Source: Actinomadura sp. HBU206391 (GTDB taxonomy: Bacteria; Actinomycetota; Actinomycetes; Streptosporangiales; Streptosporangiaceae). From it: DNA of 64,000 nt. Below, in pieces: positions 4,920 through 46,909 of the stretch (position 1 is its first letter; every line of letters starts with the position of its first letter). The position numbers and the translations under genes are program-made. A model generated the notes under the pieces. That model was given only the letters and a program-made list of their open reading frames with translations, was not told the DNA's origin and did not search any database. The DNA lies in contig NZ_JABVEB010000010.1 in the NCBI RefSeq assembly GCF_014323665.1, forward strand, positions 1 to 64,000. Reading direction: 5' to 3'.

Positions 4920-7067
4920 CTACTCGGCGGCGACGGACTCCTTCTCCGGCGCGCGGCCCTCGCCCTTGATGGACTTGATCAGCAGCTGCGAGACGTCGAC
5001 GACCTCGAGCGACTCCTTGGCCGCGCCGGCGTTCTTCTTCTCGTTGATCGCGTCGCCCAGCATGACGAGGCAGAACGGGCAGGCGGTCGAGACGGTGTCG
5101 GGGTCGGTCTCCAGCGCCTCGTCCACGCGTTCGGTGTTGATGCGCTTGCCGATCCGCTCTTCCATCCACATCCGGGCGCCGCCCGCGCCGCAGCAGAACC
5201 CGCGGTCTTTGCAGCGGTGCATCTCCTTCGTCTGGACGCCCGGGACCTTGGCCATGATGTCGCGCGGCTGCGCGTAGACCTTGTTGTGCCGGCCCAGGAA
5301 GCACGGGTCGTGGTAGGTGATGTTCTCCTCGATCGGGGTGACCGGGGTGAGCCTGCCCTCCTCGACCAGCGCCGCCAGCAGCTGCGTGTGGTGGACGACC
5401 TCGTACTGGCCGCCGAGCTGCGGGTACTCGTTGGCGAGCGTGTTGAAGCAGTGCGGGCAGGTCGCCACGATCTTCTTGACGCCCGCCTCGTTGAGCGTCT
5501 CGACATTCTGCTGCGCGAGCATCTGGAAGACGAACTCCATGCCCAGCCGGCGGGCCGGGTCACCGCTGCAGGCCTCCATCGGGCCGAGCACCGCGAACTT
5601 CACCCCGGCGATGTGCAGCAGTTCGGCGACGGCCTTGGTGGTCTTCTTGGCCCGGTCCTCCAGGGCGCCGGCGCAGCCGACCCAGAACAGCCACTCGGTG
5701 TCTTCGGAGATCTTGTCCTCGACGACCTGGACCTCGAAGTCGAGATCCCCGACCCAGTCGAGACGCTTGGTCTCGGACATGCCCCAGGGGTTGCCCTTGT
5801 TCTCCAGGTTCTTGAGCATCACGCCGGCCTCGGACGGGAAGCTCGACTCGATCATCACCTGGTAGCGCCGCATGTCGAGAATATGGTCGATGTGCTCGAT
5901 GTCGACGGGGCACTGCTCGACGCAGGCTCCGCAGTTGGTGCAGGACCAGAGCACGTCGGGGTCGATGACGCCATTGACGTCCTCGCTGCCGACCAGCGGC
6001 CGCGCGGCCTCGGCCAGCACGTCCTCGGGCAGGTTCTCGCGCTCGGCGTCGGTCGCCAGGAAGAAGGGCGCCTTGGCGAAGGCGTGGTCGCGCAGGTCGG
6101 TGATCAGCATCTTGGGCGACAGCGGCTTGCCGGTGTTCCAGGCGGGGCACTGCGACTGGCAGCGGCCGCACTCGGTGCAGGTGGCGAAGTCGAGGAAACC
6201 CTTGAACGTGAAGTCCTCGATCTTGCCGCGGCCGAAGGTGTCCTCGTCCGGGTCGGCCTCCTCGAAGTCGAGGAGCTTGCCCTTGCTCATCATGGGCTGC
6301 GCGGGGCCGAGGCCGTCCGGGCGGCGCTTGAACATGACGTTGAGCGGCGCGAGGAAGATGTGCAGGTGCTTGGAGTGCACCACGATGATCAGGAACACCA
6401 GCATGACGCCGATGTGCAGCAGCAGCCCGATCGACTCCAGGATCTCGTTCGTGTCGTGACCGAGCCCGTCCAGCACGCTGCCGACGGCGTGTGAGGCGAA
6501 CGCGCCGTCGCCGTACGGGAAGTTGCCGGTCGCGACACCGGCGCCGCGGAACAGGAACATCGTCCAGATCACGTTGAAGATCATGAACAGGATGAGCCAG
6601 GCGCCGCCCACGTGCGAGCCCTCGAACCGGGAGGCGCGGTCGAGCCTCTTCGGCGAGTTCTTGATCCGGATGATCGCGAAGGCGATCAGGCCGAGCAGCG
6701 CCGCGACGGCGATGAAGTCCTGCAGGAAGCCGAGCGCGTCCCACTTCCCGACGAGCGGGATGTGGAAGTCCAGCCCGAAGATCAGCGCTCCGTACGCCTC
6801 GAGATAGACGGTCGCGAGGATGAAGAACGCCCACATCACGAAGAGGTGCGCCAGGCCGGGGCCGGTCCACTTGAGCAGCTTGCGCTGCCCGAAGACCTCG
6901 ACCACCTGGCCCTTGACGTCGTCGCCGATGTTCTCCTTGACCGAGGCGACCCGCGTCGGGTCCGGCTGACCGCTGCGGATGAGCCGGTAGAGGAACAGCA
7001 CCCGCCGACCGGCGAACGCGAGGGCGACCGCCGTTCCGGCAAGCCCAATGATCAACCTGAGAACCAC
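4920..7067 (-). CDS. membrane-anchored (Fe-S)-binding oxidoreductase, heterodisulfide-reductase-like
   Basis: A 715-aa membrane electron-transfer protein. The N-terminal third has about five to six hydrophobic helices of the nitrate-reductase-gamma/HdrE type. It is followed by two 4Fe-4S motifs, CTECGRCQSQCP and CTNCGACVEQCP, then two CCG domains (CPHCFNTLANEY, DPCFLGRHN, RGFCCGAGGARMW). This layout matches the actinobacterial Fe-S oxidoreductase group that includes M. tuberculosis Rv0338c; electron donor and acceptor are unknown. The GTG start is preceded by AGGAGG at 8 nt. It is a single gene, transcribed toward the ABC transporter terminator. Confidence 0.9.
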   Translation of the reverse strand: MVLRLIIGLAGTAVALAFAGRRVLFLYRLIRSGQPDPTRVASVKENIGDDVKGQVVEVFGQRKLLKWTGPGLAHLFVMWAFFILATVYLEAYGALIFGLDFHIPLVGKWDALGFLQDFIAVAALLGLIAFAIIRIKNSPKRLDRASRFEGSHVGGAWLILFMIFNVIWTMFLFRGAGVATGNFPYGDGAFASHAVGSVLDGLGHDTNEILESIGLLLHIGVMLVFLIIVVHSKHLHIFLAPLNVMFKRRPDGLGPAQPMMSKGKLLDFEEADPDEDTFGRGKIEDFTFKGFLDFATCTECGRCQSQCPAWNTGKPLSPKMLITDLRDHAFAKAPFFLATDAERENLPEDVLAEAARPLVGSEDVNGVIDPDVLWSCTNCGACVEQCPVDIEHIDHILDMRRYQVMIESSFPSEAGVMLKNLENKGNPWGMSETKRLDWVGDLDFEVQVVEDKISEDTEWLFWVGCAGALEDRAKKTTKAVAELLHIAGVKFAVLGPMEACSGDPARRLGMEFVFQMLAQQNVETLNEAGVKKIVATCPHCFNTLANEYPQLGGQYEVVHHTQLLAALVEEGRLTPVTPIEENITYHDPCFLGRHNKVYAQPRDIMAKVPGVQTKEMHRCKDRGFCCGAGGARMWMEERIGKRINTERVDEALETDPDTVSTACPFCLVMLGDAINEKKNAGAAKESLEVVDVSQLLIKSIKGEGRAPEKESVAAE

Positions 7068-9070: not shown

Positions 9071-9169
9071 CGCCTGCTCCTCCGTCCATCCCGGTGTGCT
9101 CTGTCACCGGGTAGTGGTCCGGGGACGGCGATCGTTACCGAGTATCCGCACGCGGCTCGGCACGCGGCC

Positions 9170-26302: not shown

Positions 26303-26319
26303 CGCTGCTAACACACACT

Positions 26320-26399
26320 CCAGCGCCGTTCAGTGTCGGGAAACGCACCACGAAGTCGCCCGTCCGTGGTTCGTTCGCCGACACTGAACGGCGTTCTGG
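26320..26399. repeat. 80-nt imperfect inverted repeat after clpB
   Basis: CGCCGTTCAGTGTCGG (26324-26339) pairs perfectly with 26378-26393, and the similarity continues inward and outward with few mismatches (CCAG at the left edge, ACCACG on the inner side). The whole 80 nt can fold into one long hairpin. It may terminate clpB and the convergent gene at 26416, or be a small repeat element. Confidence 0.65.
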
Positions 26400-26415
26400 G
26401 CTCATCCGGCGGAGA

Positions 26416-27042
26416 TCATCGGGCGGAGAAACGTGCGCTCGGCCCGCCGCGCAGCCGCCCCTCCGGCAGGCTGCGGCCGCACAGCACGAGCAGCAGATCC
26501 TGGGCGGCGCCGCTCAGCGGCGCCCCCGACCCGTAGGACCAGTCCAGGTCGTCGGCACGCAACTCGATGCCGTCCAGATCCACTCCGAAGTACTTGACCT
26601 GCTTCGGGCGAACGCCTCGCAACACGATGCCCAGCCGATCCTCGGGGACCTTCCGGGCCAGGCCCAGAGCGACCGTGATGTCCAGACCATGGATCACGTC
26701 GTGGGACAGAGCGCCCTCGAAACCGCCCCCCGGTGGCTTCCACGGGTGCGTCGCGTTCTCGCGCAGCGAGCCGAGGAGTTCCTCGGCCGGCAGTAGTGCC
26801 GCGTCGCGGCGGGCGGACCGGTCGGCCATCCGGTCGAAGTTCCCCCGCGCTCGTACGAGCTGCCACAGAAAACCGGGCAACGAGGACCGAAACGGCATGG
26901 TCATGTGCGCCACGACCTCGCGTACCCGCCACCCGGCGCACAGCGACGGCGCGTCCCATCGCTCGGCCGGCAGTTCACCCAGCAGGGCCGCGAGGTCCCG
27001 GCGCTCGGCCGCGATCGCCGCTCGTACATCCGTGTCCCGCAT
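26416..27042 (-). CDS. maleylpyruvate isomerase N-terminal domain (DinB-like) protein
   Basis: A 208-aa protein of the TIGR03083/MDMPI_N type. The N-terminal four-helix DinB-like fold carries WDAPSLCAGWRVREVVAHM, whose His is the first metal ligand of the family, and SHDVIHGLDI supplies the later His pair. Such proteins are mycothiol-dependent enzymes of mostly unknown substrate. ATG 27042 has GAGGAGG 6 nt upstream. It is a single minus-strand gene facing clpB. Confidence 0.85.
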   Translation of the reverse strand: MRDTDVRAAIAAERRDLAALLGELPAERWDAPSLCAGWRVREVVAHMTMPFRSSLPGFLWQLVRARGNFDRMADRSARRDAALLPAEELLGSLRENATHPWKPPGGGFEGALSHDVIHGLDITVALGLARKVPEDRLGIVLRGVRPKQVKYFGVDLDGIELRADDLDWSYGSGAPLSGAAQDLLLVLCGRSLPEGRLRGGPSARFSAR

Positions 27043-27312
27043 TCGATGCCTCCTCTCGCGGATCCATCGGCACGGATCCGCCCTCGCCCCCACCGACGAA
27101 CGGGCCGCCCGCCGACCGACATCGTCACGGCACCGTCATCGGGCCGCCGGGCCGCCGGGCCGCCCGGCCGTGAGGGCCGCGCGTGCGCGATCCGGACCTG
27201 AAGGCCGAGGCCGTTCTCGACCGGTGCGAATGACGGCTTGACGCCCGCCCCGGGTCACCGATCTGCTGACGGATGGATTCCGACAACGAGCGGATCGGTC
27301 TGAGGGAGTGGC

Positions 27313-28320
27313 ATGGACGACTTCATCGCGGGGCTGCCCAAGTGCGAACTGCACCTGCACATCGAGGGCACGCTGGAGCCGGAGCTGAAATTCCGGCTGG
27401 CCGAGCGCAACGGCATCGAACTTCCGCACGCGACGGTCGAAGAGGCGCGTGCGGCGTACAGCTTCGACAGCCTCACCTCGTTCCTGGTCGGCTACTACGA
27501 GAGCATGGACGTCCTGCGAACCGAGCCGGACTTCTACGATCTGGCGTACGCCTATCTCGCCAAGGCCGTGTCGCAGAACGTGCGCTACGCGGAGATCTTC
27601 TTCGATCCGCAGGCGCACACGTCGCGAGGCGTGCCCTTCGACATCGTGATCCGCGGGCTGCGGCGGGCGATCCTCGACGCCGAGCGTACGCTCGGCATCC
27701 GAGCGCAGCTCATCATGTGCTTCCTGCGCGACCTCTCCGCGGGGTACGCCATGGCGACGCTGATGGAGTCGCTCCCGTACCGGGAATGGATCGTGGGCGT
27801 CGGGCTCGACTCCGACGAGCGTGGCAACCCTCCCGTCAAGTTCGAGCAGGTCTTCGCCCGTGCCCGGCAGGAGGGTTACCTGCTGACCATGCACTGCGAC
27901 GTCGATCAGGAGAACTCCGTCACGCACATCCGGCAGTGTCTCGACGTCATCGGCGTCGACCGCATCGACCACGGGGTGAACGCGCTCGACGACTCGTCAC
28001 TGGTCGAGGAGATCCAACGGCGCGGGCTCGGCTTCACCGTCTGCCCAGTCTCGAACGGCTTCGTCACCGACGGGATCAAGGCCGAGGAGATCCGGCGCAT
28101 GCTCGACCTGGGCCTGCGGGTCACCGTGAACTCCGACGACCCGGCCTACTTCCTCGCCTACGTGACCGAGAATCTGCAGGCGGTGCACCAGGCCCTCGAC
28201 CTGACCACCGGCGACCTCGCCCGGCTGGAGCAGAACGCCTTCGAGATCAGTTGGCTGCCCCGTGCGGTCAAGGACGGCTACCTCGCCGAACTCACGGACT
28301 ACACCCGAACCCAGGGGTGA
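27313..28320 (+). CDS. adenosine/adenine deaminase-family amidohydrolase, variant active site
   Basis: A 335-aa TIM-barrel aminohydrolase of the ADA family. Metal ligands are visible: HLHIEG at the N-terminus (residues 14-19), the second-half His in MHCDVDQEN (near 197), and VNSDDPAYF (near 276) with the terminal Asp. The segment FFDPQAHTSRG is typical of the adenine-deaminase/aminohydrolase branch. The usual HAGE motif, whose Glu is catalytic, is replaced by HCDVDQEN. It is often annotated adenosine deaminase; the true substrate may be another 6-aminopurine. The ATG start follows GAGGGAGTGGC. Confidence 0.85.
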   Translation: MDDFIAGLPKCELHLHIEGTLEPELKFRLAERNGIELPHATVEEARAAYSFDSLTSFLVGYYESMDVLRTEPDFYDLAYAYLAKAVSQNVRYAEIFFDPQAHTSRGVPFDIVIRGLRRAILDAERTLGIRAQLIMCFLRDLSAGYAMATLMESLPYREWIVGVGLDSDERGNPPVKFEQVFARARQEGYLLTMHCDVDQENSVTHIRQCLDVIGVDRIDHGVNALDDSSLVEEIQRRGLGFTVCPVSNGFVTDGIKAEEIRRMLDLGLRVTVNSDDPAYFLAYVTENLQAVHQALDLTTGDLARLEQNAFEISWLPRAVKDGYLAELTDYTRTQG

Positions 28321-28339
28321 CGATCCCGCAGCCCCGTCG

Positions 28340-28361
28340 GAACAGAACGTCGACCCGGCCG
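28340..28361. repeat. 22-bp direct repeat, left copy, flanking the HNH gene
   Basis: A 22-bp word beginning GAACAGAACGTCGACC is identical to 30758-30779. It begins 19 nt after the stop of the deaminase gene. Confidence 0.9.
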
Positions 28362-28409
28362 GGGGCTACATCCGGGACGGCTCTAGCGGGGACCGAGGGT
28401 GCCGTTGTT

Positions 28410-30497
28410 TCAGGCGGCCCAGAGGGGTGGTGTTCCGGGTGGGCTGTGTTCGTGGATTTCGCGGCCGTCTGGTGCGGTGGCGGTGGTGCTTCCATCGGGG
28501 TCGAGGCGTATCTCCCAACCCCAGCTGTGCACGGCGATGAGGTGGTGGAAGCTGCACAGCGTCAGCAGGTTCCACAGTTCGGTGGGCCCGTCCTTCGACC
28601 GTGGGACGATGTGATGGACCTGCGACAGCGACGCCGGATGGTCACACCCGGGGAAGCGGCACCGCTGGTCTCGGCGCCGCACCGACCTTTCCAGCGCGGC
28701 AGGCACGGTCTTGTCGTCTTTTCCGGCGTCGAGGACGATGCTCGGGCCGGCGAGTGGGCGGTCGAGGAGGCGGGTGCGTAGGTACGAGGCGAGCCCGCGG
28801 GGCCCGGAAAGAACTTGGATGGCCCAGCGGAGCATCCCGGCCTGCAAACGGGAATAGCTGCCTGCATCCAACGGTCGCCGTGCATGCAGGCAGCTACCCG
28901 GATCGCATCCGCATCCGATGTCAGTGCAGGTGGCGCCCGTCGTGGACTGCGGTAAGCAGTGGGTGAGCCATTGGTCGGTCATGGCGTTAAGGGCGTCGTA
29001 GTCGATGTCGGCGGTCACGGTGGGGGTGATGGTCGAGTCGCAGGCGAGTGCGGCGGCCAGGGTATTGCTGATGGCGCCGATGCCCTCCAGCACCGCGCCC
29101 TCGTCCAGTCCCGGCAGTCTCGGCTGAACCGGACCCGGCGGGCGCATCGACCGGTCGGCATCGGACGCACCGACCCGTTCACTGCCGAGTCCACTGCCCG
29201 CATCAGGGACGAGTCCATCGTAGGCGCGGACGAGGTGACCGCCTTCACGGCCATCGGCCGGTCCGGCGTCCAGGCCATCGACCGGCCTGGTGCCCGGTTC
29301 GGTCACCTGGCCGGTGTCGGAGTCGGTGTCGGAGTCCGACTGAATGCCGCGCTGGGTCGTTTCGGTGTCGGCTTGTGCGTCGCCCTCGGCGTCGGTCTGG
29401 TGCGCATGGCCGTTATCCGGATCGGTGTTCACACCGGTGCCGGTCTCGGCGTCGGCCTGGATGCCGTCTGCGGATGCCGACCCGGACGGCGACCCGGACG
29501 CCGACCCGGACGGCGGCTCAGACGGCGGCTCAGACGGCGGGTCGTTCGTACGGCCGTCGTCGTGGAGGAAGAGGTCGTTGGTGGTGTCGCCGTGGAAGCG
29601 GCGGCGGGCCAGGTTGGCGGCGGTGTGCTCTATCCATTCCCGTTCGGCTTGGCGGGAGCCGGGGAGGTTCCGCAACGTGGCCAGGTCCATGTCGACCTTC
29701 ACCTGCGGCTTGGACCCACCACGTTCCGGAAGCAGATCGGAGGCGGCCAAGCGGCGCATGGCCTCGACCAGGGCGTCGTGGCGGCGCTGTGTCTTGGTGC
29801 GGGTGTCTTCCGGGCCTTGCCTCACCGCGAGCGCCTCGATCACCGTCTCGGCCAACGCCGTTCCCTCGGCGGTCAGATCCCCATTGAGCCGACCCACCCC
29901 ACCCAAAGTCTTCGACAGCGTCAGGTTACGTTCGGCATCCCGCCGGGCCTCCTCATCCTCCAGGCCATTCGGACGGAGCCGGCGGAGAGCGGCGTTGTGG
30001 ATCTCGACCAGATCACCGAGTTCGGCGCCGGAGCGGGCGGCCTCGGTCAAGATGTCCTCGACAGTGTCGCGGTCGGCCGGTTCGAAGGCCTTCACCAGGT
30101 CGGTGATCGACTGACCCACCGACTCGGCCACCTGCCCGTCGGAGAGAGACTGGTGGACGTGCGCGTGACCAAGCTGCCGCAACGACCACCCCACCGCCCG
30201 CCGACCCGCGGCCGGCGTACAACGGGTGAACCTCGCCAACCACGCCCCCACCGAACGCTGCCCATCCGCAGCGGGGCCATTGGCGGCATGGAACGCACCG
30301 ATCAAGCTCGCGTATGCGGCACTTTCCTTGGCCTGCAACCGCGACCACGCCTGTAATAACTCGGCCTGCGTCGACACCGGCAAAGTCGGCAGATCCTCAC
30401 CATTCAGGAAATCCCACGCCGCCTCCACCATCGCCAACGCCTCCACCGCACATGACGGCGAAACCACAGCACAAGGTTCAGACACCAGTGGCTCCAA
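28410..30497 (-). CDS. DUF222 / 13E12-type HNH endonuclease
   Basis: A 695-aa protein. The N-terminal DUF222 region is helical (about residues 15-290). A long low-complexity stretch follows (about 310-430; repeats of SEPPSEPPSG and many Asp, Thr, Gly). A second globular part leads to the HNH nuclease domain near the C-terminus (RCRFPGCDHP, LSQVHHIVPRSKDG, NLLTLCSFHH). This is the architecture of the 13E12 repeat family, common in multiple copies in actinobacteria. The gene and an AT-rich leader lie exactly between two perfect 22-bp direct repeats, suggesting insertion as a unit. Confidence 0.9.
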   Translation of the reverse strand: MEPLVSEPCAVVSPSCAVEALAMVEAAWDFLNGEDLPTLPVSTQAELLQAWSRLQAKESAAYASLIGAFHAANGPAADGQRSVGAWLARFTRCTPAAGRRAVGWSLRQLGHAHVHQSLSDGQVAESVGQSITDLVKAFEPADRDTVEDILTEAARSGAELGDLVEIHNAALRRLRPNGLEDEEARRDAERNLTLSKTLGGVGRLNGDLTAEGTALAETVIEALAVRQGPEDTRTKTQRRHDALVEAMRRLAASDLLPERGGSKPQVKVDMDLATLRNLPGSRQAEREWIEHTAANLARRRFHGDTTNDLFLHDDGRTNDPPSEPPSEPPSGSASGSPSGSASADGIQADAETGTGVNTDPDNGHAHQTDAEGDAQADTETTQRGIQSDSDTDSDTGQVTEPGTRPVDGLDAGPADGREGGHLVRAYDGLVPDAGSGLGSERVGASDADRSMRPPGPVQPRLPGLDEGAVLEGIGAISNTLAAALACDSTITPTVTADIDYDALNAMTDQWLTHCLPQSTTGATCTDIGCGCDPGSCLHARRPLDAGSYSRLQAGMLRWAIQVLSGPRGLASYLRTRLLDRPLAGPSIVLDAGKDDKTVPAALERSVRRRDQRCRFPGCDHPASLSQVHHIVPRSKDGPTELWNLLTLCSFHHLIAVHSWGWEIRLDPDGSTTATAPDGREIHEHSPPGTPPLWAA

Positions 30498-30757
30498 CGC
30501 AGGTGAGGGGTGGAAGTGGGTCGGATGCTTACGACACCTAATCTATCGCACTGATGTTCGAATGGCAATGGGAAATCGATGAATCCAAAGCTCCGGCAAC
30601 GCAGCTCGTTTAATCTAATTGGCGCATATTGCCACAAATGCACCAACGTATATATTTTGCACGTAGGCGAACGCGCTTGGCACATGGCTGCATTACCGCC
30701 ACGGTCATCACGGTGGAGGCCTCGGCGCGGCCGCCCGACGAGCGTGGACCGCGAAGT
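30498..30757. other. AT-rich leader upstream of the HNH gene
   Basis: About 30500-30670 is strikingly AT-rich for this genome (for example CGTATATATTTTGCACG at 30647-30663). It probably contains the HNH promoter. It lies inside the direct-repeat-bounded segment. I see no gene in it. Confidence 0.6.
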
Positions 30758-30779
30758 GAACAGAACGTCGACCCGGCCG
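30758..30779. repeat. 22-bp direct repeat, right copy, flanking the HNH gene
   Basis: It is identical to 28340-28361 in the same orientation. It ends 2 nt before the stop codon (30782-30784) of the minus-strand zinc-ribbon gene. Confidence 0.9.
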
Positions 30780-30781
30780 AG

Positions 30782-31309
30782 CTACGCCCAGCAGTCGAAG
30801 TTCCAGTGTTCGGGCAGCATGGCGCCGCACAGGTCGCAGAAGAAGTAGCGGTCTTTGACCACATTGCGCTCACCGCACCCCGGGCATCGGCGGAACAGCA
30901 GCTTGTCGGTGAAGTCGCCCGGGTGCGGCAGGCCGGCCCGTTCGAGGGCGCCCGCCACCGCGGGCCAGCAGTCGGGGTCGGGGCAATAGCCCGTCGACTG
31001 ATTGCTGACCTGGGCCACCGACCACTCGCCGGCCGTACCCGCGAAACGCACCTCACCCGCGGCGAGTACGTCCCGGCCGCCCGCGCACGCGACGTGCTCA
31101 CTGCGTCGTGGCGCCAGCCGGAGCAGCCCATCGAGGCCGACGACGAACGTGAACGGCTCGTCGAGATCCTGGACGCCACCGCGACCCTTCAACCACCGGT
31201 CGAGATCCGCCTGGCAGCCGATGACGACGGCCTCGCCACCGGGACGGACCTCATCGGAGAGTTCGGCCGGACCGACGTAGCGGTACCGGCGCCGGGGGCC
31301 TCCGGCCAC
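30782..31309 (-). CDS. zinc-ribbon protein of unknown function
   Basis: A 175-aa soluble protein that I cannot assign. The N-terminal half is a mixed alpha/beta region (YRYVGPAELSDEV, AVVIGCQADLDRWL). The C-terminal end carries a zinc ribbon, CPGCGERN...FCDLCG, and a further Cys pair in YCPDPDCWPAV. GTG 31309 follows CGAGG by 7 nt, and the gene starts 20 nt after the dioxygenase stop, so the two probably form an operon. The 22-bp repeat abuts its 3' end. Confidence 0.75.
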   Translation of the reverse strand: MAGGPRRRYRYVGPAELSDEVRPGGEAVVIGCQADLDRWLKGRGGVQDLDEPFTFVVGLDGLLRLAPRRSEHVACAGGRDVLAAGEVRFAGTAGEWSVAQVSNQSTGYCPDPDCWPAVAGALERAGLPHPGDFTDKLLFRRCPGCGERNVVKDRYFFCDLCGAMLPEHWNFDCWA

Positions 31310-31329
31310 AGGGACACCTCGACTCCCGA

Positions 31330-32064
31330 TCAGCCCGCGATGAGTCGGACGGGATCGTAGTCCAGCCAGGGATCCTGCAGGAACTCGCGCCAGCGCGGGT
31401 CGTGGCCCGACCGCTTGACCCGGAAGTACAGAGCCCGGCGTACGGCATCGGAGGTGTTCCCGCCGATGTTGTGGCCGAGCAGATAGTGGGCGAGCAGCAC
31501 GTCGCCGGCCCGGCCGTGGATCCGCTCGGGCTCGGGGAGCGTGATCGGCGGATAGCCGGCCGCTTCGAAGAACGCGTCGGGGCCGTGCCCGCGGAAGTAC
31601 TCCGCGTGGGTCAGATGGGTGCCCGGCCACACCCACAGGTTCCCCTCGTCGTCGCTGAGCTGGCCCGACATCAGCACCCCGACGAGCATCGTGAACGTCC
31701 CTGGGCGGCCGTCCGGCTCGCACGGCGAACCACCGTCGAGGTGGTGCGAGCCGGGTCGGTGCGGGAACGGAGGAATGTTCAGGGCGATCTGTACCTGCCA
31801 CGGCACGTCCAGGGTGCCCGGGCCGGTCAGCGCCTCGGCCGTCGAGAAGACCGGGGTCTCCGTCAGCACGTTGAGCAGCGATGGCGCCTTGTCGGTTTCC
31901 GGAAAGTAGAAGTGCGGGCCGCGAACACCGGCACCCGGCGGATCACGCTCGATCGTCTCGTCGATGAACTGCGACGCGGCCGTCACCAGCTCCGGCGGCA
32001 CGGCCTGCGGCAGCAGGAGGAACCCGCGTTCGGCGAAGTCCTTCAGCTGTGATGAGCTCAGCAC
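31330..32064 (-). CDS. phytanoyl-CoA dioxygenase-family Fe(II)/2-oxoglutarate oxygenase
   Basis: A 244-aa PhyH-type oxygenase. The iron-binding triad is visible as HHLDG (His and Asp near residue 105-107) and HNIGGN (distal His near 208); the 2-oxoglutarate-binding Arg is probably in RRALYFRV. The natural substrate is unknown; PhyH enzymes hydroxylate lipids, amino acids or natural products. I choose GTG 32064; no strong ribosome-binding site is present and longer in-frame starts exist. It is followed by the zinc-ribbon gene. Confidence 0.82.
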   Translation of the reverse strand: MLSSSQLKDFAERGFLLLPQAVPPELVTAASQFIDETIERDPPGAGVRGPHFYFPETDKAPSLLNVLTETPVFSTAEALTGPGTLDVPWQVQIALNIPPFPHRPGSHHLDGGSPCEPDGRPGTFTMLVGVLMSGQLSDDEGNLWVWPGTHLTHAEYFRGHGPDAFFEAAGYPPITLPEPERIHGRAGDVLLAHYLLGHNIGGNTSDAVRRALYFRVKRSGHDPRWREFLQDPWLDYDPVRLIAG

Positions 32065-32235
32065 CCTGTCGACACTAGGTCGACCATTCGGCGATCGCGA
32101 ACGATTATCCGCACGCCCGCCACGCCACGCCGTGCCATTCCACACCACGCCAACCTCCGCCGGACGACCCGCACGGGTCGCACGGGTCGCACATTCGACG
32201 GCCGACAAGGGCGGTCGCGGCGCACGTCGCGCCGA

Positions 32236-33160: not shown

Positions 33161-33727
33161 TCAGAGGAACAGTTCGGCGAGGCGCGGAAGGCGCCTGCGC
33201 ATCTCGTCCTCGTCCTCGAAGTCCCAGTTCTCGCCCGTCGGCGGTTCGAGACGTCCGGGCCGTGGCAATGCCTCGTGATAAGCGTCGTAAGAGTCGGTCT
33301 CGCCCTGCCGGCGGCCGTAGGCGATGCGCGACACGTAGTTCATGCCCTCGCAGCCGATCCAGCCCTTGTCGTCGTGGGCCATCCGGTTCACGACGGGCAG
33401 CTCGGCGAGCGAGTCGGGATCCTCCAGCGCCCGCGTGAACGTGTCGCGTCCGAGGAGGATCAGACCGGCACGGAAGTCCATGAAACCGTCGTCGCCGCAC
33501 CCTCCCTCGATGAGGTAGGCCGCTCCCCACAGCGAATACCGATAGGCCGAACTCCATATTTCGGAGAACGTCCCCCCGAACGCGATGATCTGCTCCGGGG
33601 GAAGCGCGGCGAGCTGGTCGACCAGGTGGGGAACGAGCGGGTCGTTCGGCGGGTCACGGTCGTCGGCGCGGTCCCCCGCCGATGCTCTCGCGCGCTCGAC
33701 GAAGCCCCACCACGCGTCGATGTCCAT
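33161..33727 (-). CDS. DUF4240 domain-containing protein (copy 1)
   Basis: A 188-aa protein with the DUF4240 pattern: MDIDAWWGFVERARA at the start, then IIAFGGTFSEIWSSAYR, AAYLIEGGCGDDGFMDFR and LILLGRDTFTRALEDPDSLA. The function of this family is unknown. ATG 33727 has GGAGG 8 nt upstream. It is strongly similar along its whole length to the protein at 35438-35995, so the two arose by duplication. Downstream (33105-33155) are short repeats such as CGCGTACAGAAC, twice in tandem. Confidence 0.85.
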   Translation of the reverse strand: MDIDAWWGFVERARASAGDRADDRDPPNDPLVPHLVDQLAALPPEQIIAFGGTFSEIWSSAYRYSLWGAAYLIEGGCGDDGFMDFRAGLILLGRDTFTRALEDPDSLAELPVVNRMAHDDKGWIGCEGMNYVSRIAYGRRQGETDSYDAYHEALPRPGRLEPPTGENWDFEDEDEMRRRLPRLAELFL

Positions 33728-35437: not shown

Positions 35438-35995
35438 TCAGAGAAACAGCTCGGCGAGTCGAGGAAGGCGCCGGCGCATCTCGTCGTCGTCCTCGAGATC
35501 CCAGCGCTCGCCCGCCGCCCGGTCCGGCCATCCGGGGGTGGACATCGCCGCGTCGTAGGAGTCGGTCTCACCCTGTACGCGTTCGTACGCCGTGTGGGCT
35601 GCGTGGTTCATGTCCTCACAGCCGATCCAGCCCCCGTCGCCATCGGCCATTCGGATCACCACGGGCAGGTCGGCCAGCGAGTCGGGATCGTCGACCGCGC
35701 GGGTGAAGGTCGTACGGCCGAGCAGGATCAGGCCGGCGCGAAAGTCCATGAAGCCGTCGTCGCCGCATCCGCCCTCGATGAGGTAGGCCGCCGCCCACAG
35801 CCGCCACTGGTGAGCCGAGCGCCACACCTCGGAGAACCGCCGCTCGAACGCGATGATCTGATCGGGCGGCAGGGCGACGAGCAGATCCACCAGGATGTCG
35901 ACCAGCGGATCATCGGGCGAATCGCGGTCGTCGGCCCGTTCGCCGGCGGCCACACGCGCTCGCTCGATGTGGCCCCACCACTCGTCGACGTCCAT
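35438..35995 (-). CDS. DUF4240 domain-containing protein (copy 2)
   Basis: A 185-aa paralogue of the protein at 33161-33727, sharing AAYLIEGGCGDDGFMDFR and the C-terminal EMRRRLPRLAELFL. ATG 35995 is chosen because GGAGG lies 8 nt upstream and it aligns with the start of copy 1; ATG 36019 would add eight residues. Function is unknown. The intergenic sequence just downstream (35357-35417) recurs in altered form at 36773-36833. Confidence 0.85.
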   Translation of the reverse strand: MDVDEWWGHIERARVAAGERADDRDSPDDPLVDILVDLLVALPPDQIIAFERRFSEVWRSAHQWRLWAAAYLIEGGCGDDGFMDFRAGLILLGRTTFTRAVDDPDSLADLPVVIRMADGDGGWIGCEDMNHAAHTAYERVQGETDSYDAAMSTPGWPDRAAGERWDLEDDDEMRRRLPRLAELFL

Positions 35996-38625: not shown

Positions 38626-39417
38626 GTGAACACGGCCCGCCGGTCACTTCGGCAGCTCACCGGCGATGCCCGACGCCAGACCGCATCCGTCCTCGCGGCC
38701 CTCGACGACCAGACCAGCAAACTCATCCAGCAGGTACGCAGCCTCAAGTCATCCGAGAGCAGCCGCGCCCGATCGGCTGGTGAGGCACGTGGGCGACCAC
38801 TCCCCGATCTTCCAGGCGACACCTCCGACCTCATCCGGCGAGTCCTCAGCGAAGCCGAGCCGCCGACCGCACCGCCAACGCCGACGCCACCACGGCCCGT
38901 ACACCAGCCCCCTGCCGCCCGGACACCCGTCACCACCGTTCACCCGGTGAAGCCCAGGACGACCGTGGCACCTCCGAGGCCGAGGCCGGAACCGGTGAGG
39001 GTCATCTCACGAGGCAGAGCATCGGCCCCGCCCACGAGCGAATCCCGCCGCTCGGCCGGCGGACCGTCACGCCTTCCCGCTGCGGGGATCCGCACGTGGC
39101 CTGACGATCCACGGCAGGCTCCAGAAGATCGGGCACGCCGCCTCGTCCCTGGCGACGGCTCCAATCCCGGTCGCCGACGCGAGCCCGATCGCATGGGCCC
39201 GGACGGCCGTCCGCCCGATCCTCCCGCCACGGACGGCCACTCGAGCCCACCGGTGGACGTTCTCGGAGACGCTCGCGGATGTTGCCCCGGAGGCATGGGA
39301 CGGAACGTCCGTCGCGACCGGCGGGGCACGGGCGCAAAATGCGTTGCCAGCGACTCCAGCGGTCGTCACCCTTACCGGAACGGCAGGGGAAGACCGGAAC
39401 CCCCACGAAGGGAATGA
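38626..39417 (+). CDS. hypothetical protein, helical N-terminus and Pro/Arg-rich tail
   Basis: Weakly supported. The first 60 codons give a plausible amphipathic helical segment (RRSLRQLTGDARRQTASVLA, DQTSKLIQQVRSLK), and coding-like sequence in the same frame begins before the GTG (LGFHADRGKCEAQRQLEAV). A Pro-rich region follows. The last 80 codons look less protein-like, and another frame may take over there. I do not recognise a family. The 957 bases between the broken regulator and the RNA ligase hold nothing else that I can support. Confidence 0.35.
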   Translation: MNTARRSLRQLTGDARRQTASVLAALDDQTSKLIQQVRSLKSSESSRARSAGEARGRPLPDLPGDTSDLIRRVLSEAEPPTAPPTPTPPRPVHQPPAARTPVTTVHPVKPRTTVAPPRPRPEPVRVISRGRASAPPTSESRRSAGGPSRLPAAGIRTWPDDPRQAPEDRARRLVPGDGSNPGRRREPDRMGPDGRPPDPPATDGHSSPPVDVLGDARGCCPGGMGRNVRRDRRGTGAKCVASDSSGRHPYRNGRGRPEPPRRE

Positions 39418-39418
39418 C

Positions 39419-40534
39419 ATGTCCACGCTGCGGGTCACCGCGGAACGGCTGACGATCCACCCCCACGACAATGCGGACGCGCTCGAGCTTGCGCAGGTCG
39501 GGCTCTACCGGGCGGTCGTCGCCAAGGGCGAGTACAACACCGGCGACTGGGCGCTCTACATTCCCGAAGGCTCACTGCTGCCCGACGACCTGATCGAGGA
39601 ACTCGGCCTGACCGGCAGGCTGGCCGGCTCGCAGAAGAACCGGGTCAGGGCCGTACGGCTGCGCGGCGAGCTCTCGCAGGGCATCGTGTGCAGTCCAAAG
39701 GCTGTGGACGACGTCGACCTGGCCGCAGCGCACGCGGAGGGCCGGAACTTCGCGGCCGACCTCGGAGTCACGAAGTGGGTGGCGCCCATTCCCGTGCACA
39801 TGGCCGGTGAGATGCTCCCCGCGCCCGACCTGATCCCGTGGATCGAGATCGAGGACATCAAGCGCTACCCCGCCATCTTCGAGCCCGGCGAGCCGGTCGT
39901 GGCGACAGAGAAGGTGCACGGCACGGCGTGCCTGTTCACCCTGGCGCTCGACGAGCGTGGCACCGCCTCGAGCGACGACGGCTCGGTGCCGGGCGACTAC
40001 TTCGTCTCCTCCAAGGGGTTCGGCTCCAAGCGGCTCGCCATCGCGCACGCGGACACGAACCTGTACTGGCGCGCGATCGAGAGCTACGGCGTGCCGGCCG
40101 TGGCCGCCCGGATCGCCGAGTTGTTCGACACCGAGCGGGTCGGCATCTTCGGCGAGGTCTTCGGCAAGGGCGTACAGGACCTGGGCTATGGCGCGTCCGG
40201 TGGCGGCGAACGGCCCGGCTACGCCGTCTTCGACATCGCCGTGCAGGTGCCCGGCATCATTCGCTGGCTGGACCCCGGCGAGCTGGCCGACGTGCTCGCG
40301 AAGATGGAGCTGCCCGCCGTACCGCGCCTGTACGAGGGGCCGTACGACCAGGCGGCGCTCATGGAGCTGGCGACCGGCCACGAGACCGTCTCGGGCACGT
40401 CCGCGCACCTCCGCGAGGGACTGGTCGTCAGGTCGGCCACGGGTCGCTACAGCTCGGTCACCGGCGGCCGCGCCATCGCCAAGTTCGTGTCCCCGGCCTA
40501 CCTCACCCGTAAGGGCGGCACGGAGTACGAGTGA
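39419..40534 (+). CDS. RNA ligase (ATP), Rnl5/DRB0094 family
   Basis: A 371-aa ATP-dependent RNA ligase of the Deinococcus DraRnl type (TIGR02306-like). The N-terminal OB-like domain comes first (LRVTAERLTIHPHDNADALE). The adenylyltransferase domain follows with motif I EKVHGT (Lys near residue 168 is the nucleophile), motif IV-like LREGLVVR and motif V-like IAKFVSPAY. Family members seal nicks in RNA or 3'-OH/5'-PO4 ends with a DNA or RNA template. ATG 39419 follows GAAGGGA by 6 nt. It is a single gene followed by a PhoD-like gene. Confidence 0.88.
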   Translation: MSTLRVTAERLTIHPHDNADALELAQVGLYRAVVAKGEYNTGDWALYIPEGSLLPDDLIEELGLTGRLAGSQKNRVRAVRLRGELSQGIVCSPKAVDDVDLAAAHAEGRNFAADLGVTKWVAPIPVHMAGEMLPAPDLIPWIEIEDIKRYPAIFEPGEPVVATEKVHGTACLFTLALDERGTASSDDGSVPGDYFVSSKGFGSKRLAIAHADTNLYWRAIESYGVPAVAARIAELFDTERVGIFGEVFGKGVQDLGYGASGGGERPGYAVFDIAVQVPGIIRWLDPGELADVLAKMELPAVPRLYEGPYDQAALMELATGHETVSGTSAHLREGLVVRSATGRYSSVTGGRAIAKFVSPAYLTRKGGTEYE

Positions 40535-40709
40535 CGACGCCGGAGGCATCCTCGGCGGAGCGTCTGACGGGGCGAGAACCCCGGGCGCTCCGCCGACCGG
40601 CCGAAGATCATCGCGCGTGGTCGGTGGCCTGAACGCGACGTGAACGCGGGCGACGGCTCCAATCCCGTACCCCCCGGCAGGTGGACGCAGCCGCCTGGGT
40701 CGGATAGAG

Positions 40710-46207: not shown

Positions 46208-46909
46208 TTAGCGGGAACTGTCACCACTCAGCGACGGACGCGACGCTTCCGAGTCGTTCTTCTCCGGATCGTTGCCACCAGAACGCCGTCCCCGTAGGAC
46301 CTCACGGAGTACTGGAACGATCGAGGCGAGCACCGCGAGAGCCACCACCGGAAGCACGAACTTGTCGATGCCCTCGACGCGATTGCCCAGGTAGTGGCCG
46401 AGTAGGACGATCGACTCGGTCCAGATGATCGCGCCGACGACGTTCCAGATGAAGAACCGGCGGGCGCTCATCTCGAGCATTCCGGCGAGCGGGTTCAGAA
46501 AAGTCCGAACCACCGGGATGAAGCGGGCGAGCACGACCGCCTTGGCGGGGCCGAACTTGTTGAAGTAGTGCTCGGCCTTGTCGACATGTTCCTGTCGGAA
46601 CAGCCGAGAATTCGGACGTTCAAACAACTTACGACCATAACGGGCACCGAGATAGTGGCCGAACTGCGCGCCGGCGATCGCGAAGAACGGCGCCGCGATC
46701 AGCAGCATGGGCAGTGAGAGCGGTTCGATCCCCACCCCCTTCGCGCCCGACACGGTCGTGAAGAGACCGGCGCTGAAGAGGAGAGTGTCGCCGGGCAGGA
46801 AGAACCCGATCAACAGACCTGTCTCAGCAAAGATGATCAAGAGAATTCCGACCACGCCGAAGGCGGTGATGAGCGAGGTCGGGTCCATCCAATTCACGGC
46901 GAGATCCAC
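46208..46909 (-). CDS. DedA-family membrane protein
   Basis: A 233-aa member of the DedA/SNARE-associated family, which flips lipid carriers or maintains the envelope potential. It has the family block ETGLLIGFFLPGDTLLF, then GARYGRKLFERPNSR and ARFIPVVRTFLNPLAGM, with about five hydrophobic segments. I choose GTG 46909; the longer frame upstream is Ser/Arg-rich and not protein-like. It is divergent from fbaA, with a shared 180-nt promoter region. Confidence 0.9.
   Translation of the reverse strand: MDLAVNWMDPTSLITAFGVVGILLIIFAETGLLIGFFLPGDTLLFSAGLFTTVSGAKGVGIEPLSLPMLLIAAPFFAIAGAQFGHYLGARYGRKLFERPNSRLFRQEHVDKAEHYFNKFGPAKAVVLARFIPVVRTFLNPLAGMLEMSARRFFIWNVVGAIIWTESIVLLGHYLGNRVEGIDKFVLPVVALAVLASIVPVLREVLRGRRSGGNDPEKNDSEASRPSLSGDSSR

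Follow-up and report, generated by a model that had tools for sequence, protein, structure and literature searches.

Identical 22-bp direct repeats around a DUF222-HNH gene of Actinomadura sp. HBU206391, most likely a mark of its recent relocation next to the same neighbour

We analysed a stretch of 64,000 nucleotides from the genome of Actinomadura sp. HBU206391 (hereafter the window), in which a nuclease gene of the DUF222-HNH type lies between two identical 22-mers. Most likely, the arrangement is a scar that remained when this gene recently changed its place next to one and the same neighbour. Our preferred explanation, which we put forward tentatively, is that a one-gene unit (28362-30757) moved locally and recently by break-repair copying combined with non-homologous joining. 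The locus offers an unusually clear trace of a possible route by which DUF222-HNH genes spread. The host genome (G000) was compared with those of two congeners, namely Actinomadura alba strain HBUM206468 (G001) and G002, a Streptosporangiaceae metagenome-assembled genome. The features of the locus are as follows.

27313..28320, + strand: adenosine deaminase gene, left neighbour (stop codon at 28318-28320); located elsewhere in G002, close ortholog not found in A. alba
28340..28361, no strand: left 22-bp direct repeat; exact match, unique in the genome save for its partner
28362..28409, no strand: spacer of 48 nt from the left repeat to the HNH stop codon; similarity to A. alba begins at about 28403
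28410..30497, - strand: DUF222-HNH (13E12-type) gene, 695 aa; PF02720 and PF01844 above cut-off, ortholog in A. alba, start codon as given by the ORF tool
30498..30757, - strand: AT-rich leader (putative promoter region) of the HNH gene, 260 nt, recognized by composition; part of it aligns with the A. alba leader
30546..30561, - strand: TCGAACATCAGTGCGA, a LexA/SOS-box-like site that differs at one position from the mycobacterial LexA box TCGAAC(N4)GTTCGA (PMC4181829)
30758..30779, no strand: right 22-bp direct repeat; exact match
30782..31315, - strand: zinc-ribbon gene, right neighbour (stop codon CTA at 30782-30784, 5' limit approximate); 80% identical protein in A. alba

The 22-mer GAACAGAACGTCGACCCGGCCG is present in the window as two exact copies in direct orientation (28340-28361 and 30758-30779), as described in the initial annotation. 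The distances given there, 19 nt from the deaminase stop codon to the left copy and 2 nt from the right copy to the zinc-ribbon stop codon, agree with the sequence, and the copies enclose nothing but the HNH gene, its leader and the 48-nt spacer. A third exact copy was found neither in the 8.24-Mb host genome, which is a draft of 586 contigs, nor in 150 genomes of the family, and the next-best matches in the host genome had 3 mismatches. Furthermore, the 22-mer had no match in 100 dinucleotide shuffles of the window, even when 3 mismatches were allowed, and it was absent within 5 mismatches from the A. alba and G002 stretches examined. When 854 kb of the host genome were scanned, the pair was the sole isolated exact direct repeat of at least 22 bp with a spacing of 0.3-6 kb, the remaining exact direct repeats of at least 22 bp being tRNA genes, dispersed hairpins, and tandem paralogs or coding sequence. 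By a simple composition estimate, the probability that intergenic stretches of 300 nt and 100 nt share an exact 22-mer was about 3e-8. The repeat pair exceeds chance. A draft of 586 contigs may raise the suspicion of an assembly artefact; however, the pair lies inside a 91-kb contig that is syntenic with A. alba on both sides of the repeat, and with chance made negligible by the shuffles, the repeat scan and the composition estimate, a chance repeat or an assembly artefact is hardly credible. As a separate observation, contig C1 of the host genome carries an exact 439-bp direct repeat at 95430 and 97780, 2350 bp apart.

The enclosed protein contains a DUF222 domain (PF02720, 49.6 bits against a cut-off of 24.4) and a C-terminal HNH domain (PF01844, 25.6 bits against a cut-off of 21.4), in which the Cys-His motif is apparently intact. 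The gene is a member of the 13E12/DUF222-HNH family, as judged from its domains, the number of copies and the SOS box. Three other identities were considered and rejected: a phage or plasmid carrier gave weak HNH-domain matches, a defence system gave a marginal match to DpdF, and the match to IscB, far below the IscB cut-off, reflects the common HNH fold. The leader had been described initially as foreign in composition. Its AT-richness is real, yet usual among the DUF222 genes of the host: an AT-rich stretch of this type near the frame start, with at most 51% G+C over 100 bp (a value reached only by the lowest 5% of blocks in the window), was present at 11 of the 16 other host DUF222 loci. 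In addition, a predicted LexA box with at most one mismatch was located near the start at 9 of 17 host DUF222 loci, compared with 10 of 2000 random 400-bp blocks. Given the predicted SOS box and the AT-rich leaders usual for host DUF222 genes, the leader is most plausibly a damage-inducible promoter region that belongs to the HNH gene itself and includes a predicted LexA site. In Mycobacterium tuberculosis, several probable 13E12 genes are part of the LexA regulon, and the family has mobile-element characteristics (PMC5005354). The REP13E12/13E12 family of that species is like the gene studied here in its DUF222 and HNH domains, its multiple copies, its LexA/SOS control, which is predicted for the present gene, and its suspected mobility (PMC5005354, PMC4181829, PMC10589994). 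On the other hand, the window copy differs in lying within an exact 22-bp direct repeat and in having an ortholog that is repositioned in a congener; neither feature was found described for the family in the open papers searched.

A single unit flanked by perfect direct repeats is what a site-specific or transposase-type insertion would leave, with the 22 bp as att core or target duplication, and the initial annotation had called the pair att-like. However, neither a transposase nor a site-specific recombinase was found in the unit, where DUF222-HNH is the sole enclosed gene, and no terminal inverted repeat pair was found at 28362/30757. The 22-mer is also missing from the other DUF222 loci and from all relatives searched. 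An att-like site was rejected on account of the unique 22-mer and the lack of a recombinase, and we regard an insertion of either type as very unlikely.

The ortholog of the HNH gene in A. alba has 84-88% DNA identity in aligned pieces, and ClpB and the epimerase gene have 87% and 88%, respectively. Since the ortholog is at ordinary genus divergence, a recent import of the window gene from outside was rejected. The gene order in A. alba is ClpB, zinc-ribbon, HNH and epimerase, the stop codons of the first two being 5 nt apart, and no flanking repeats were found at the HNH ortholog. In the window the HNH gene adjoins the zinc-ribbon gene on the 3' side, and in A. alba on the other side; because the same zinc-ribbon gene is flanked on opposite sides, the HNH gene, as judged from gene order, has shifted its place relative to this neighbour within the genus. 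The ClpB-epimerase interval is variable in the genus, with two genes in A. alba and five in the window (26303-32235), where a DinB-type gene, the deaminase gene and a PhyH gene are extra. In G002, the deaminase gene adjoins a phoD-like gene, and the contig with ClpB stops just beyond ClpB. We infer that the move is probably younger than the split of the two species, since two intergenic 22-mers would be unlikely to stay identical across such divergence; even for sequence that diverges only as much as coding DNA, the chance of 22 bp staying identical is about 5% (0.87 to the power 22). The initial annotation had proposed insertion or recombination of a 2.4-kb unit. The moved unit is largely borne out by the A. 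alba ortholog across the zinc-ribbon gene and by DUF222 genes that come and go (see below), whereas the att-like pair and the foreign leader that belonged to the same proposal are not.

Under the break-repair explanation, the DNA would first break at the 3' terminus of the zinc-ribbon gene, and the HNH enzyme itself may have made this cut in the course of DNA damage. The HNH gene and 22 bp of the target would then be copied onto one of the two ends from a template already carrying the gene there. Non-homologous joining would connect the copy to the second end, where the original 22 bp would still be present. The length of the repeat would be set by the break position, giving 22 bp in the window and about 430 bp at contig 312, a second locus described below. 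In this series we infer the break, its cause, the template and the joining. Break repair is favoured because it gives direct repeats of variable length, because Ku, required for end joining, is encoded in the host genome, and because it fits SOS control. The observations that speak for it are the unique exact pair enclosing the HNH gene alone, the A. alba ortholog without repeats, contig 312 and the predicted SOS box. Against it stands that an empty junction, with deaminase and zinc-ribbon genes, a single 22-mer and no HNH gene, was found in no genome searched; neither congener has a deaminase/zinc-ribbon junction.

Because no empty site is available, and because the A. alba order is convertible into that of the window by one duplication and two deletions, tandem duplication followed by differential loss is a real rival, and the main one of break repair at the window locus. 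Specifically, an ancestral block in the A. alba order, made up of the zinc-ribbon and HNH genes and the 22 bp flanking them on the 3' side, would have been doubled in tandem. Deletion of the zinc-ribbon gene from the first copy and of the HNH gene from the second would then have left the left 22-mer as the remaining edge of the doubled block. No special mobility is needed for this conversion, and tandem gene duplicates are common in the host genome. However, the one duplication and two deletions would have to stop exactly at the 22-mer, and the spacers hold no convincing remnant of the lost genes: in about 160 comparisons, the short GC-rich matches were taken as chance, the exceptions being the epimerase flank, which was expected, and the leader itself. 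Duplication and loss would furthermore leave unexplained why a diverged 3' end has replaced the native one at contig 312. We consider this course of events possible, if somewhat unlikely.

A search for other host DUF222-HNH genes with direct repeats of their own, as suggested in the initial annotation, yielded one, on contig 312, while the other loci had none. In contig 312 (G000:C312, 2832-5800), the 3' end of a sensor-kinase gene has been replaced, and the DUF222-HNH gene lies between the displaced native and the diverged replacement 3' ends. The displaced end is frameshifted, has a C-terminal tail of the A. alba type and is followed downstream by the native DNA; the replacement end, which has a different sequence, is fused to the kinase and completes the gene. 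The counterpart in A. alba is an undisturbed sensor-kinase gene with one 3' end and without a DUF222 gene. Identity of the kinase to A. alba was mostly 89-96% from 5660 upwards and 77-86% per 100 bp below, towards the 3' end, and when followed in 50-bp steps it dropped from 48/50 to 38/50 at 5648, near the end of the displaced copy (about 5597). Among sites with the same base in two of the three sequences, the pairing of the displaced copy with A. alba led (51 vs 34 and 24), even though the displaced copy is broken. Such a pattern would result from single-crossover or one-sided recombination with an imported kinase 3' end and HNH gene. Target DNA that may have been co-converted flanks the insertion at contig 312; no foreign block is apparent in the zinc-ribbon gene of the window. 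Note that contig 312 also limits the case for break repair, since it is a single further example and its repeats, in contrast to the short identical pair of the window, are long and have diverged.

Alternatively, an HNH fragment might have been captured at a staggered break in the window, where nicks about 22 nt apart would be filled in and Ku-dependent end joining would leave 22 bp duplicated. The presence of Ku and an exact duplication without inverted ends agree with such a capture. However, a 22-nt stagger is long, the source fragment would come from next door and contig 312 would be unexplained, and we judge the capture quite improbable.

Homing normally leaves no flanking repeats, both ends being repaired by homology. 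The genes described here are like free-standing HNH homing endonuclease genes in that a lone nuclease gene lies beside conserved genes and is present or absent among relatives, with flanking target DNA at contig 312; unlike in homing, repeats are present. Some integrative elements insert at the 3' end of a gene and replace that end. As in those elements, the native 3' end at contig 312 is displaced, the replacement completes the gene, and direct repeats flank the unit. However, only one gene and no integrase are present here, and the repeats of contig 312 are diverged target, not an identical att core.

DUF222 matches numbered 20 in the host genome, 18 in A. alba and 12 in G002. In the A. alba stretches that match the flanks of ten other host DUF222 loci, no DUF222 gene was found; since 0/10 of the compared sites are occupied, DUF222 genes appear to be often gained and lost between these genomes. 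At the contig 24 locus, A. alba has no DUF222 gene and appears to retain leader-like sequence, which looks like loss, and this locus was rejected as empty-site proof of insertion. Flanking direct repeats of more than 15 bp were present at two of about 40 DUF222 loci in the three genomes, namely the window (22 bp) and contig 312 (about 430 bp). Flanking repeats were therefore rejected as a general feature of DUF222 loci, and a target duplication of a fixed length typical of DUF222 genes, also considered at the outset, finds no support in these numbers. Because most DUF222 loci are without flanking repeats, DUF222 genes, if they insert, would usually leave none.

More broadly, DUF222-HNH (13E12) genes might be autonomous one-gene mobile elements. 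Once induced by DNA damage, they would cut next to a conserved gene and insert a copy of themselves by one-sided recombination and end joining, so that the target is either duplicated over a variable length or has its 3' end swapped; we hold this general proposal to be unlikely. Many actinobacteria carry repeated copies of 13E12/DUF222-HNH genes, whose mobility has been suspected, while junction-level evidence was not found in the papers searched. Specifically, we found neither flanking duplications nor replaced target 3' ends described for this family in the open papers searched, subscription journals being mostly outside that search, which is no proof of novelty. The two junctions in one genome, one of them with an HNH-free relative, provide concrete target sequences for cleavage and insertion tests. 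If true, break repair would tie the movement of genes, and changes at the 3' ends of host genes, to the SOS response.

Other repeats and hairpins were also observed. An exact isolated 19-bp direct repeat, GGCGACGGCTCCAATCCCG (39151-39169 and 40649-40667), flanks an RNA-ligase gene (39419-40534) of the window; the RNA-ligase gene and its phoD-like neighbour are present in A. alba, and the 19-mer is absent at the aligned place. Two 300-bp stretches (33282-33581 and 35550-35849) are 78% alike; they probably represent paralogous genes that flank a phosphodiesterase-like gene. Directly past the ClpB stop codon, a strong hairpin (26324-26393) has 29-nt arms that are 90% complementary. A similar hairpin is present in A. 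alba (L129) at a site matching contig 575, and the post-ClpB hairpin looks like a dispersed terminator-like element. Finally, a dispersed sequence with the core TGCATGATCACG, which often forms a hairpin, was located at 9161, 15823 and 48114 of the window, at 46828 of G000:C543 and at 191 of G000:C124.
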